Shown here in pieces: positions 34,307 through 39,314 of a stretch of DNA of 64,000 nucleotides. The notes under the pieces were generated by a model, which saw nothing but the letters and a program-made list of their open reading frames with translations, was not told the origin of the DNA and searched no databases. Positions within the stretch are counted from its first letter, which is position 1; the number at the start of each line of letters is the position of its first letter. Source of the DNA: an uncultured Bacteroidia bacterium (GTDB taxonomy: Bacteria; Bacteroidota; Bacteroidia; Bacteroidales; UBA932); assembly GCA_902768665.1 (NCBI GenBank), contig CACXMA010000003.1, forward strand, positions 86,454 to 150,453, given 5' to 3'. Both the position numbers and the translations under genes were made by a program.

Positions 34307-36154
34307 TTACCACCACTCCGGACGGGAGTAATCGTACTTTTCGCGCTCGGCCGCCCAGTTGTCGTCCTCGGCGACGATCTCGGTGCGGTCGATGTAGAGG
34401 ATGCCCTCGAGGTGGTCGATTTCGTGCTGGAAGATAATGGCCGTGAAGCCGGAAACGGTCTCGGTGCAGGCCTCCAGCGTCTCAGGATTGACATAACTGA
34501 CGGTGACCTCGCTGTGGCGGGCCACCATGCCGCGCATGCCCGGGACCGACAGGCAGCCTTCGGCGCCATGGACGATGGGGCCGGTCAGCGTGTCAATGCG
34601 GATGTTGGCGTAGGCTTCGAAGGGTTCGCCCTCCTTGTCGAGGCGCTGGACGAGGACGAGGCGGCGGTTGAGGCCGACCTGCGGCGCGGCGATGCCGACC
34701 CCTTCCTGTGACGGGGCGGTGACGGTTGCATGCATCTTCCGGATGAGGGTGTCGAGCAGCGGCGAAGCGAGTTCATCTTCCGTAAAATCAATGCTCCTAC
34801 GGCGCAGGATCAGGGAGTCCTGCGGCAGCGTGGTCACGTACATGACGGAATCCGACAGGGTGATGATCTGCCGCTCCCGGCGGGTGAAAAGGAGGTCTTC
34901 ACCGGGGGCGCTGCATACCCATGCATAAGGCTCGCGGACGGGTTTCGGGGCGGCGACCTTGTCGGGGTTGAGCACGAGGCCGTCCTCGAGGAAGAGGGCC
35001 TCGATGGCGCGGACTTCCTGCGTCAGGCGGGCGATTTCCTCGCGGAACTGCTCCTGGCGCTTTTCCGCGGCGAGGATGCGTTCCTGCAGCGGGCCGCGGA
35101 GGCTGTCCGGGGCTGCGGAATACTCGCTGCGGAGGCGGTCGGCGGCCTTGATGCCGAGGGACAGGGAATCACGGCAGGCGCGCACCTGGGCCATCCGGCG
35201 CATGTAGAGTTCGGCATGGTCACGGCCGGCGAAGGGATCATCCTCAACGCTTTCTTCCACAGGTACTTCCAGACGGGCGAGGGCTTCGAGGTCCGCGGGA
35301 TCCGTCATCGGGGTGTAGACCGGGACGGCGTTGAAACTGACGACGCAGACTTCGACGCTGTCGGCGGGGCAGCCGCGGGTCGTGGCGAAAAGGGCTTCGC
35401 TTCGGCCCGGGTCCTGCGCGAAGAGGAAGTCGTCGCCGGGGGAGTTGTAGGGGAAGCCGAGGTTTACCGGGGCGTCCCATCCGCGGCGGCGGGGGTTCCA
35501 GCGGATGCTGTAGAGGTCGTAACCGCCGACGCCGTAGAGGCCGTCGCAGGCGAAGTAGAGCCGCTCTCCGTCGGGGGACAGGACCGGGAAGATGCAGTTG
35601 GCGCCTTCCGGAACGCCGGCTTCGAAGGGTTCGGCGGGACGGATGCGGCCGTCGCTGCGCCTTTCCGCCTTCCAGAGGCGGTAGACGCCGGCCGAATCGG
35701 GAGCGGAGAAATAGATGTCGGGGGATTCTGGGAGCCGGAGGGTCGCCGGGGAGAGCGGGCTTGCCGCGCTGCGGTCGGCCCGGTTCGGTTTGGCGAGCCA
35801 GCTGCTGTCCGGGAAGGGATAATAGCGGAAGAAATCCGTGCGGGCGAAACGCCGCCGGGCGATGATGTCGGGCTGGTCCACGAATTCGGTCATGGCCAGG
35901 CCGTTGCGCGAGAGGAGCATCCGCGCCTCGATGGCCTGCATCGCGAGGGTGTCCGCCGCGGTCATGAGGCTGTCGGGCTTGTCCGTCAGCCGGTACAGCG
36001 CCTCGTCGAAGCAGTCCAGCGCTTCGTCAAAACGGTAGTGGCGGTGGTGTTCCCCGGCGAGAGCGACCAGCGAATCGACCGCCGTGCTTTGGGCACGGAC
36101 GGGAAGGGCCGGAAGGAGGGCCAGCAGCAGGGCAAAGAGCAGCAGGCGTTTCAA
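34307..36154 (-). CDS. Exported fusion: TPR-like/PD40 region plus peptide deformylase domain
   Basis: 615 residues beginning at TTG 36154, directly after an in-frame TAA; no upstream ATG exists in frame. Signal peptide MKRLLLFALLLALLPALPVRA. Residues 30-100 are helical (TPR-like) and 140-290 contain PD40/WD40-like blades (IFPVLSPDGERLYFACDG, PGDDFLFAQDPGRSEALFAT). A coiled coil at about 325-395 leads to a complete peptide deformylase: GVGIAAPQVG (485-494), EGCLSVP (Cys534) and HEIDHLEGILYID (577-589), with all three metal ligands and the catalytic Glu present. Deformylases normally act on nascent chains in the cytoplasm, so an exported version is odd. Convergent with the ABC exporter, 15 nt apart. 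Confidence 0.88.
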   Translation of the reverse strand: MKRLLLFALLLALLPALPVRAQSTAVDSLVALAGEHHRHYRFDEALDCFDEALYRLTDKPDSLMTAADTLAMQAIEARMLLSRNGLAMTEFVDQPDIIARRRFARTDFFRYYPFPDSSWLAKPNRADRSAASPLSPATLRLPESPDIYFSAPDSAGVYRLWKAERRSDGRIRPAEPFEAGVPEGANCIFPVLSPDGERLYFACDGLYGVGGYDLYSIRWNPRRRGWDAPVNLGFPYNSPGDDFLFAQDPGRSEALFATTRGCPADSVEVCVVSFNAVPVYTPMTDPADLEALARLEVPVEESVEDDPFAGRDHAELYMRRMAQVRACRDSLSLGIKAADRLRSEYSAAPDSLRGPLQERILAAEKRQEQFREEIARLTQEVRAIEALFLEDGLVLNPDKVAAPKPVREPYAWVCSAPGEDLLFTRRERQIITLSDSVMYVTTLPQDSLILRRRSIDFTEDELASPLLDTLIRKMHATVTAPSQEGVGIAAPQVGLNRRLVLVQRLDKEGEPFEAYANIRIDTLTGPIVHGAEGCLSVPGMRGMVARHSEVTVSYVNPETLEACTETVSGFTAIIFQHEIDHLEGILYIDRTEIVAEDDNWAAEREKYDYSRPEWW

Positions 36155-36174: not shown

Positions 36175-36182
36175 CAAAAGTA
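36175..36182 (-). promoter_or_regulatory. -7 promoter box TACTTTTG for the deformylase fusion
   Basis: Exact TAnnTTTG match on the minus strand. The predicted start near 36168 leaves a 13-14 nt leader before the TTG at 36154. Confidence 0.6.
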
Positions 36183-36305: not shown

Positions 36306-39300
36306 ATGCAAAGTAAAGGTATCATCAGAGTACTGGCAATTCTTATTGCGATCGCCTGCATCTGGCAGCTTTCCTTCACTTTCGTCGCCCGTCACTATGA
36401 CAAGAAGGCCGAAACGGAAAGCCGCGCGCACGCCGAGCAGTTCTTTGCCGACAATTTCTCCTCTGACCCCGCTGCCGAAAACAAGTTCCTGTTTGTCGAA
36501 GGAAACGAGAAGTACATCCAGGACACCCTCGCCAGCAATTTCAAGAAGCGCTATATCGACTCCCTGAGCAAGCTGGATGTCTATTTCCGCTACACCTACA
36601 AGGATGTCAAGGAAAAGGAAATCAACCTCGGCCTTGACCTCCGCGGCGGTATGAACATCACCCTCCAGCTCCGCATCGAGGACCTGCTCGTGAACCTCGC
36701 CCAGACGAACGCTACGAACGAGTTCTTCACCGCAGCCCTCGCCGCAGCCCAGAAGGACGCTTCCAACAGTTCCGCCTTCATCGAGGCTTTCGACGCCGCC
36801 TGGAAGGCCCAGCGCGCCAAGGAAGGCTGCCCGAGCCTCGGTCAGCTCTTCTCCCTCTCCGATACGGAGGAGGATCCCTGGTCCGAGCGCAGCGACGCCC
36901 AGATCATCAATGTCCTCAGCGAGAAGGCCAAGGCGGCCATCGCTTCCGCCCGCAAGGTGTTCGAGAACCGCGTCAAGCGTCTCGGCGTGACCCAGCCGGA
37001 AATCCGTGAGGTCGGCGAAAGCGGCCGTATCCTCATCGAGCTCCCGGGTGTCAAGGAGCCGGAGCGCGTCAAGAAGATCCTCGGCGGCACCGCCTCCCTC
37101 GAGTTCTGGGAGACCTACAACGGCGCCGACATCCGCCGCGAGTTCGCGGAGGCCGACCGCTTCATCTATGAGAACACGAACGAGGTCCGCGACACCAACA
37201 ACCGCGCCCCGCTTTCCTCCCTGCTGATCACCGAGGGTGCCAGCGGCGCCTGCATTGGTTATGCCGTTGCCGACGATACGCTCCGCATCTCCCGCTATAT
37301 CCGCCAGATCCAGGAAGCCAACGCCGTTGAATGGCCGACCGACTTCCGTGCATACTGGGAGGTCAAGGGCGAGTCCCGCATCGACGCTTCCCGCGACTAC
37401 TTCGGCCTCGTCGCCATCAAGGTCGGCGAAACCGGTGTCGCCCCGCTCGACGGCAGCGCCATCTCCAGCGCCAATATCGACACCCGCAACAACGGTCAGG
37501 TGACCGTCTCCATGGCCATGAACAGCGACGGTACCCGCATCTGGGCTGCCCTCACCGAGCGCAACGCCCCGGGCCGCCGCGCTGACAACGGCACCAGCGG
37601 CCAGATCGCCGTCGTCCTCGACAACCTCGTGTACTCCTACCCGATCGTCAACGAGGCCATCACCGGCGGCCGCAGCGAAATCTCCGGCGACTTCACCATG
37701 ACGGAGGCCCAGGACCTTGTCAACGTCCTCCTTTCCGGTACCCTTCCGGTCGGTGCCCGCATCATCCACAGTGAGGTGGTCGGCCCGTCCCTCGGTCAGG
37801 AATCCATCAACAACGGTCTCCTCTCCTTCGCCATCGCGTTCTGCCTGGTGCTCCTGTATATGATCTTCTTCTATCAGGGTGCCGGTATCATCGCTGACAT
37901 CGCCCTCCTCGTGAACGTGCTCTTCCTCATCGGTACGCTCGTTTCCTTCAACCTCGTCCTGACGCTGCCCGGTATCGCCGGTCTCGTCCTGACCCTCGGT
38001 ATGGCGGTCGATGCCAACGTTATTATATATGAACGTATCAAGGAAGAAATCGCCGCAGGCAAGGGTCTCGGCAAGGCGGTCGCCGACGGTTACCGGAATG
38101 CCTATTCCGCCATCCTCGACGGTCAGATCACGACCCTCCTGACGGGTATCATCCTCTTCCTCCTCGGCGGCAACGGTCCGGTCCGCGGCTTTGCGACGAC
38201 CCTGATGATCGGTATCATCACCTCCATCGTGACGTCCATCTTCATCACCCGCATCATCATCGACGACCGTCTGGTGAAGGGCCGCAAGATCAGCTTCGAG
38301 AACAACCTTACGAAGAACTTTCTCAAGAACACGAAGATCGACTTTGTCGGCAAGCGCAAGTTCTCCTATGTGTTCTCCGGGATCCTGATCGCCCTGGCCA
38401 TCGGTTCCATCGCCATCAAGGGCTTTACCTACGGTGTCGACTTCAAGGGCGGCCGCAACTTCATCGTGAAGTTCGACCAGCCTGTCAAGGCCCAGGAAGT
38501 CCGCAGCGCGGTGACGGCCGAGTTCGAGGGTTCCTCGACCGAGGTCAAGCAGTACGGCGGCGAGACCCAGCTCCGTATCACGACGACCTATGGTCTCGAG
38601 TCACGCGAAGAGGGTATCGACAAGGAAGTCCAGGACAAGCTCTATGAGGCTCTCCTCCCGTTCTACGCCACCCCGATCTCCCAGGAAGACTTCGAGACCG
38701 TTGACGAGAACTCCCCGAACGGTATCGTGACCTCCGAAATGGTGAGCCCGTCCATCGCCAGCGAGACGACGAACAAGGCCCTCTGGGCTGTCGCCCTCGC
38801 CCTCGTGGTGATCTTCACCTACATCGCCATCCGCTTCAAGGGTCTGGCATGGGGTGTCGGCGGTGTCACTTCCCTGGCCCATACCGCCATCATCATCATC
38901 GGCTTCTTCTCGCTGTTCACCGGCATCCTGCCGTTCAACCTCGACGTTGACCAGACGTTTATCGCGGCGATCCTGACCATCATCGGTTACGCCATCAACG
39001 ACAACGTGGTTATCTTCGACCGTATCCGCGAGTACAAGGGTCTCCACCCGAAGGCCGACTTCAAGGAGACTGTCAACACCGCCGTGAACGCAACCCTGAC
39101 CCGTACGGTCAACACCTCCGTCTCCTCCCTCCTCCCGATGCTCACCATCGCGATCTTCGGCGGCGAGGCGATCAGGGGTCTTGCCGTCGCCCTCAGCCTC
39201 GGTATCATCATCGGTACCTATGCGTCCATCATGATCGGTACCCCGATTATGTACGATGTCTACACCGCCCGCGAGAAGCGCAAAGCCGCCAAGAAGGCCG

Positions 39301-39314
39301 CTGCACGCCGCTAA
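36306..39314 (+). CDS. secDF: Protein translocase subunit SecDF (fused)
   Basis: 1002 residues, a natural SecD-SecF fusion as usual in Bacteroidota. The SecD part has the first helix (VLAILIAIACIWQLSFTFV), the conserved LGLDLRGGMNITLQ, the large periplasmic P1 domain and GMAVDANVIIYERIKEE. The SecF part begins near FVGKRKFSYVFSG, with YGVDFKGGRNFIVKF, AIRFKGLAWGVGGVTSLAHT and GYAINDNVVIFDRIRE. Twelve helices are expected. It uses the proton-motive force to complete protein export through SecYEG. Monocistronic between its own promoter and a strong terminator. Confidence 0.97.
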   Translation: MQSKGIIRVLAILIAIACIWQLSFTFVARHYDKKAETESRAHAEQFFADNFSSDPAAENKFLFVEGNEKYIQDTLASNFKKRYIDSLSKLDVYFRYTYKDVKEKEINLGLDLRGGMNITLQLRIEDLLVNLAQTNATNEFFTAALAAAQKDASNSSAFIEAFDAAWKAQRAKEGCPSLGQLFSLSDTEEDPWSERSDAQIINVLSEKAKAAIASARKVFENRVKRLGVTQPEIREVGESGRILIELPGVKEPERVKKILGGTASLEFWETYNGADIRREFAEADRFIYENTNEVRDTNNRAPLSSLLITEGASGACIGYAVADDTLRISRYIRQIQEANAVEWPTDFRAYWEVKGESRIDASRDYFGLVAIKVGETGVAPLDGSAISSANIDTRNNGQVTVSMAMNSDGTRIWAALTERNAPGRRADNGTSGQIAVVLDNLVYSYPIVNEAITGGRSEISGDFTMTEAQDLVNVLLSGTLPVGARIIHSEVVGPSLGQESINNGLLSFAIAFCLVLLYMIFFYQGAGIIADIALLVNVLFLIGTLVSFNLVLTLPGIAGLVLTLGMAVDANVIIYERIKEEIAAGKGLGKAVADGYRNAYSAILDGQITTLLTGIILFLLGGNGPVRGFATTLMIGIITSIVTSIFITRIIIDDRLVKGRKISFENNLTKNFLKNTKIDFVGKRKFSYVFSGILIALAIGSIAIKGFTYGVDFKGGRNFIVKFDQPVKAQEVRSAVTAEFEGSSTEVKQYGGETQLRITTTYGLESREEGIDKEVQDKLYEALLPFYATPISQEDFETVDENSPNGIVTSEMVSPSIASETTNKALWAVALALVVIFTYIAIRFKGLAWGVGGVTSLAHTAIIIIGFFSLFTGILPFNLDVDQTFIAAILTIIGYAINDNVVIFDRIREYKGLHPKADFKETVNTAVNATLTRTVNTSVSSLLPMLTIAIFGGEAIRGLAVALSLGIIIGTYASIMIGTPIMYDVYTAREKRKAAKKAAARR

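Follow-up and report, generated by a model that had tools for sequence, protein, structure and literature searches.

An export-type peptide deformylase fused to a TPR–PD40 scaffold beside secDF, a rare form of a deformylase family of Bacteroidota

The window, that is, the whole stretch of 64,000 nucleotides analysed here, contains on its minus strand an open reading frame of 615 aa without internal stop, running from 36154 to 34307 (gene 34307..36154, stop codon at 34307-34309). The frame starts with TTG, and an in-frame stop lies immediately 5' of this codon; therefore a longer start is impossible. About 20 bases 5' of the start codon a candidate promoter element, TACTTTTG (36175..36182, minus strand), was found by reading, and it matches TAnnTTTG, which we take to be the -7 consensus of Bacteroidota. 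Sequence, Pfam and an AlphaFold2 model give the order of the parts encoded in 34307..36154 as signal peptide, TPR-like helices, PD40-type beta region, coiled coil, linker and peptide deformylase (PDF). The divergent neighbour on the plus strand is secDF (36306..39314), named by resemblance, which marks the same locus in other species; the secDF copies at the other loci align with that of the window.

Residues 1–21 (36092..36154, minus strand) were judged by eye to be an apparently cleavable signal peptide without a lipobox Cys, MKRLLLFALLLALLPALPVRA followed by QS. The copy of the fusion in another MAG (L015) has ALPALAQS at this position, and its frame extends further, to an ATG upstream. The next parts, all on the minus strand, are TPR-like helices at residues 25–92 (35879..36082; AlphaFold2 model mf2790e91a422), for which the L015 copy gave a weak TPR_2 match (E 0.025), a PD40-type beta region at residues 146–273 (35336..35719; Pfam, model and partial NCBIfam matches) and a long helical hairpin or coiled coil at residues 311–390 (34985..35224; model). 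A sequence-only reading of this DNA had placed a signal peptide and a helical segment ahead of the deformylase, and both were found. A low-confidence linker (residues 396–420, 34895..34969, minus strand; pLDDT <50, alignment A1) holds Cys414 within WVCSAPGED; this residue may be what is left of the lipobox Cys that a stand-alone deformylase would have. The PDF domain covers residues 421–600 (34355..34894, minus strand; Pfam, model and Foldseek). A motif search located its three motifs on the same strand as GVGIAAPQVG at residues 485–494 (34673..34702), EGCLS at residues 532–536 with the metal ligand Cys534 (34547..34561), and HEIDH at residues 577–581 with the ligands His577 and His581 and with Glu578 (34412..34426).

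Pfam Pep_deformylase (PF01327) spans residues 441–591 with an E-value of 2.6e-35 and 121.8 bits against a cut-off of 22.8, and GxGxAAPQxG, EGCLS and HExxH with the Cys, His and His ligands are all intact, so the complete deformylase domain of the sequence-only reading is borne out. The NCBIfam equivalog TIGR00079 scored 103.5 bits against a cut-off of 103.95; among four scanned exported-type relatives, three were above this cut-off and L115 was below it (103.3). The AlphaFold2 model has a mean pLDDT of 78.8 and a pTM of 0.46, and therefore the mutual placing of the domains is uncertain, while the PDF domain was modelled at a pLDDT of 86–98 per ten-residue block. All fifty Foldseek matches listed are solved PDFs, the best ten with TMt 0.74–0.93 and E-values down to 2.6e-12. 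The domain shares the three motifs, the metal ligands and the fold with PDFs (Def, PF01327) such as those of Leptospira (1sv2) and Acinetobacter (6jf4-6jf8). In contrast to an ordinary Def, the window protein has a signal peptide and a large N-terminal scaffold, and its relatives are lipoproteins or membrane-anchored proteins with an extra FTxxExxxI...DSxxLR segment before the core, as seen in the consensus of alignment A2. A ribosome-associated PDF would be cytoplasmic and free of export signals, whereas the window protein carries a signal peptide as judged by eye. By domain, motifs and modelled fold, the gene product is a true deformylase, though not by its predicted location.

The N-terminal half is less easily named. 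PD40 scored 16.5 bits (E 0.0084) in the window protein, below the cut-off of 20.9, but it was above the cut-off in the L015 copy (23.4 bits) and in six of seven scanned non-fused relatives (27.6–36.2 bits). The remaining relative, L050, gave no Pfam match, and the Pfam scan of the diverged fusion in genome G009 gave no PD40 match. The PD40 repeats of the sequence-only reading are thus supported in a qualified way. Its propeller-like blades also hold in part: beta strands are present at residues 146–273, and "propeller-like" is a fair term for this modelled region of about 130 residues with nine strands of at least three residues, but it appears too short for a complete five-bladed propeller. 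The region belongs to a partly PorE-like N-half. NCBIfam matches to T9SS_PorE (residues 147–261, 5.7e-11) and CHU_0125_OmpA (residues 146–246, 8.2e-8) both lie far under the family cut-offs, with 41.4 bits against 600 for PorE (NF052230). The likeness to a PorE-type TPR and propeller N-half consists of the modelled helices, the short beta region and this partial NCBIfam match. According to passages of PMC7192894, PorE, a periplasmic scaffold protein of type IX secretion, likewise has TPR first and then a beta-propeller; this lipoprotein also has a CRD and ends in OmpA_C, which binds peptidoglycan. Unlike PorE, the window protein has no lipobox, CRD or OmpA_C and ends in a deformylase; some of its relatives have SPOR.

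The same fusion was found elsewhere, as the sequence-only reading had proposed to check. The L015 copy is 87% identical to the window protein, and G009 (L004/L033) carries a diverged fusion with 44% identity over the matched part. All three fusions divergently adjoin secDF, and dnaE flanks secDF on its other side in both the window and G009. It is extremely improbable that two genes were joined by an error of assembly or sequencing, which that reading had named as a danger: the genome is a draft (26 contigs) and few genomes have the fusion, 2 of 250 genus genomes among the matches listed, but the L015 copy in another MAG contradicts such an origin and the G009 fusion sits at the same place. 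In this sample of 250 genus genomes, the matches listed placed the fusion only in the window genome and G009, and twelve more places in the genus and family, mostly unusually long frames, yielded no other fusion of this kind.

Homologues of the N-half show what usually occupies this place. At 24 of 25 further N-half loci secDF adjoins divergently; L052, which lies at a short contig end, has no secDF, and L012 is cut by the contig. No deformylase was present in the C-terminal tails of these 25 homologues, as printed. The neighbour of secDF in the genus is usually a TPR–PD40 protein, and a SPOR domain was found in three of the seven scanned (24.9, 20.1 and 19.9 bits against a cut-off of 21). SPOR domains are peptidoglycan binders. 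Other N-half relatives have by eye a similar C-terminal segment, and some end earlier. This end of the scaffold, often SPOR-like, is absent in the fusions; therefore the deformylase occupies its place.

A first PDF tree set the G009 domain apart from those of the window and L015. In AU tests a single clade of the fused domains was not rejected for the PDF tree (p 0.69; the constrained tree scored higher), nor was a single clade of the fused N-halves for the N-half tree (p 0.142). Either one or two origins of the fusion would fit these results. The branches of the fused N-halves are long, 2.0 for the one common to the window and L015 and 2.28 for that of G009, whereas end branches have a median of 0.56; this suggests changed constraints on the fused N-halves. 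A mobile origin was considered and rejected, as the identity to PDFs of phages and plasmids stays <60%. Coverage of 80% of the query is reached by none of the 122 phage records with a match and by 4 of the 879 plasmid records with one, and the ten plasmid rows listed among the PDF matches are all from Pseudomonas.

A check for a second, cytoplasmic def gene, also proposed in the sequence-only reading, was positive. A PF01327 search of the window's genome, which is 88% complete, found two places, an ordinary cytosolic def of 184 aa (L001) and the fusion gene. The formyltransferase gene fmt is also present. This fmt shares one open frame with the C-terminus of an LptF/LptG permease (G000:C1:63370-63732; L175:1-1938, plus strand). 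The frame has 835 aa, and Pfam LptF_LptG, Formyl_trans_N and Formyl_trans_C all match within one translated piece of 646 aa; an LptFG–Fmt fusion and a lost stop are both possible.

Exported-type PDFs are common in the genus as separate proteins. Of 61 genus genomes searched, 53 have one, as counted from where and how closely the sequences match; this number includes two fusions and no fewer than two partial matches (G032, G059). The genus exported-type matches are 46–65% identical to residues 422–615 or most of them (44% for the G009 fusion), and the genus cytosolic def matches the window PDF at about 33–43% identity. Eight of the 61 genomes had no exported-type PDF, including G050, which is 96% complete. 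The genus copies that were read are lipoproteins, for example with LILAC-TAK or LVSC-SPW, or carry a membrane helix at the N-terminus. In the genus the exported-type PDF is usually a protein of its own, either a lipoprotein or anchored in the membrane, and the fusion is the rare form. Both the rarity of the fusion and the commonness of the stand-alone exported PDF go beyond what the window alone could show. Seven stand-alone PDFs (L018, L019, L020, L022, L032, L034 and L035) lie near a recurring group of genes that resemble, by eye, RadA, YfcE, Sua5 and RsmE.

The spread was followed outwards in sampled genomes, which are subsets of larger groups, with export signals read in the fetched loci. 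With a stand-alone copy as query, and among the matches listed, 107 of 199 family genomes scored at least 78 bits and 44 of 295 order genomes at least 87 bits. At least four more carriers in the order, G329, G417, G489 and G545 (L099-L101, L103), lie below the latter line. Profile A2 gave at least 170 bits in 12 of 392 phylum genomes among the matches listed, the window genome counted. One of these (L114) has no export signal, and the next-best match (145.6) also has none and groups with cytosolic rows. Since 92 of the 199 family genomes fall under the score line and 8 of the 61 genus genomes lack the gene, the function is dispensable. In G248 two exported-type PDF genes lie close together, the second being, in the frame found, only a C-terminal piece (L094:3373-5924). 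Several long frames, L090 (1025 aa), L011/L034, L166, L168, L169 and L170, were set aside as probably unreal fusions, because by eye an unrelated upstream frame precedes an ordinary signal peptide or membrane helix.

The N-termini of these proteins separate them from the cytosolic enzymes. By simple hydrophobicity and lipobox rules applied to the fetched loci, a hydrophobic stretch (threshold 1.6) precedes the domain in 81 of 82 exported-type rows and in 4 of 39 cytosolic rows, the latter passing narrowly at 1.62–1.90, and the lipobox rule was passed by 47/82 exported-type and 0/39 cytosolic rows. The count of 82 leaves out the partial copy L094 and four degenerate first domains (L088, L096-L098). 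A cytoplasmic N-terminus, which the sequence-only reading had named as evidence against export, is unlikely in view of this stretch in 81/82 rows. A looser rule found a Cys behind the hydrophobic stretch in 56 of 82 rows, although a few of these (for example L018, L058 and L101) are probably not lipoboxes. According to passages of PMC5080379, a K-(D/E)2-type signal marks surface lipoproteins of Bacteroidetes. Only 6 of the 56 rows have at least two acidic residues at +2 to +7 behind the Cys and only 3 (L084, L086 and L087) have a K-(D/E)2-like signal. From these counts, most exported-type PDF lipoproteins should face the periplasm, and the lipoproteins L084, L086 and L087 are possibly on the cell surface.

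The catalytic residues are conserved in the exported-type rows, and the loss of metal ligands in relatives, which the sequence-only reading had raised against its own proposal, was not seen. HExxH is present in 82/82 rows and the motif-2 Cys in 75/82. The other seven, all from f112 (L115-L121), have EGDLS, with Asp in place of the metal-ligand Cys in 7/7. The chemistry of these Asp-ligand PDFs may differ, and having Asp where others have an oxidisable Cys might be an advantage in a compartment with more oxidising conditions. A quick tree of 125 domains splits 86 exported-type rows (81 exported, the four degenerate first domains and L114) from 39 cytosolic rows with support of 92, which is not strong. 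L093, L105 and L106 fall between the main exported and cytosolic clades in the midpoint-rooted drawing. Since the exported-type label itself came from the score with a profile made of such rows, the grouping in the tree is not fully independent.

The exported-type domain also occurs with other partners. It is fused to DUF1684 (L113), to DUF4886 (L163, L164), to an AXE1 esterase (L174) and to a VTT-like membrane domain (L167, below the cut-off), and it is joined to DUF3667 with membrane helices in L093. In L099-L101 and L104 the PDF follows secreted-type N-parts without a passing Pfam match, and L092 and L172 have a C-terminal part without a Pfam match. Less expectedly, a PDF shares one frame with a flavin reductase (L091:3599-4855) or a nucleoside deaminase (L102:3919-5037). 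These two partners are usually cytosolic, which counts against the export reading, and each frame may be a fusion or reflect a lost stop. The f56 lipoproteins L095 (L095:3482-4633), L096, L097 and L098 have two PDF-like domains in tandem. The first domain lacks EGCLS in 4/4 and HExxH in 3/4, and the second is intact; L088 is the same gene as L095.

The product of the window gene is somewhat likely to be an active, exported, metal-dependent deformylase of the periplasm that clears N-formyl ends escaping the cytosolic enzyme. We infer its catalytic activity, metal, periplasmic place and substrates. The passages of PMC5454389 considered here state that SRP keeps the cytosolic deformylase off signal-bearing nascent chains, that membrane proteins, above all N-out ones, can retain formyl-Met, and that the role of formyl groups left on membrane and periplasmic proteins is unknown. 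Since formyl-Met is retained on exported ends, fMet ends exist outside the cytosol. The sequence-only reading had supposed that a periplasmic deformylase would need a substrate other than nascent chains, such as formylated peptides or a metal-dependent hydrolysis; in view of the same passages a non-formyl substrate is not required. In the mechanism that we propose, the fusion protein would be exported by the Sec route into the periplasm. N-out membrane proteins would keep formyl-Met because SRP shields the nascent chain, and their ends would reach the periplasm, where the exported PDF would remove the formyl group. It would also deformylate formyl peptides freed by proteolysis. A lipid or a helix at the N-terminus would tether the enzyme to a membrane in most of the relatives that were read; in the window genome and two related ones, this role would fall to the TPR–PD40 scaffold. 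More tentatively, Bacteroidota could have a dedicated post-export deformylation step, in which lipoprotein, membrane-anchored and scaffold-fused PDFs act on SRP-shielded N-out proteins and on peptides; two compartments would then share N-terminal processing.

The nearest rival is compatible with the same biochemistry. In it, peptides that are imported or set free nearby would lose their formyl groups and so become digestible for aminopeptidases and dipeptidyl peptidases of the periplasm. The mostly periplasm-facing lipoprotein signals agree with such nutritional unblocking, the patchy presence fits an accessory metabolic role, and the fusion partners include the AXE1 esterase and DUF4886. However, the genus loci L016-L035 showed by eye no conserved peptidase neighbour, and the neighbours vary; we regard this explanation as unlikely, though worth keeping in view. 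That the enzyme clears formyl peptides which would alert neutrophils of a host is improbable. Formyl peptides of membrane proteins and signal peptides do attract neutrophils, as passages of PMC5454389 report, but several further families and classes of Bacteroidota also have exported-type PDFs, a spread that makes a purely host-directed role less likely, and among the features seen at the locus nothing is host-related. Loss of formyl cleavage, with the PDF fold kept as a binding module, would accord with the degenerate first PDF-like domain ahead of an intact one in L095-L098 and with the Asp for the ligand Cys in f112. As the motif residues of the window protein are all intact and HExxH is present in 82/82 rows, we consider such a loss very improbable for this family.

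There is also a small chance that the exported enzyme soaks up actinonin and other natural inhibitors of deformylases and, as such a sink, shields the cytosolic enzyme. At the position aligned with Arg97, which we take to be Cys+7 by the E. coli offset, Arg is present in 48/82 exported-type rows, the window included. Arg at position 97 is the type that binds actinonin well, and the genus cytosolic Defs have Tyr there in 5/5 read (L001, L151-L154). On the other side, this Arg is missing in 34/82 exported-type rows, high abundance would be required of a sink, and the published accessory PDFs are resistant substitutes and not sinks. In Vibrio cholerae, Arg97Tyr lowers actinonin susceptibility, according to passages of PMC12690207. 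The cytosolic Defs of the genus (5/5 read) are thus of the Tyr97 type that has been linked elsewhere to low actinonin susceptibility. An accessory resistant PDF was ruled against, because the Arg/Tyr97 pattern is reversed in the genus rows read; judged by this residue, the genus exported enzyme does not look like the resistant substitutes of PMC12690207.

The accessory PDFs described in passages of PMC12690207 (Lamberioux et al. 2025) are likewise second PDFs beside an essential one. They are plasmid-, integron- or chromosome-borne, and some were shown to replace the main enzyme. On a word search, the available text of PMC12690207 gave neither "lipoprotein" nor "Bacteroid", and it gave "periplasm" and "signal peptide" once each, for a cloning vector and for exported substrates, respectively. 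The def-fmt fusion of Exiguobacterium in the same source is also a deformylase within a fused protein, and its activity was shown there; its partner is a formyltransferase, and it complements a cytosolic function. Literature searches of open-licence papers found no earlier description of an exported deformylase and no paper on "periplasmic peptide deformylase" or like phrases. The exported deformylases are a little-noticed family of Bacteroidota.

Our data indicate that the window species has an ordinary cytosolic PDF and, in addition, one with an export signal, which suggests deformylation outside the cytoplasm. Deformylation is known as a ribosome-side step, and an extracytoplasmic PDF would make the question of formyl retention directly testable. 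It would also affect views on how formyl peptides of Bacteroidota reach a host, and on what deformylase inhibitors encounter first.
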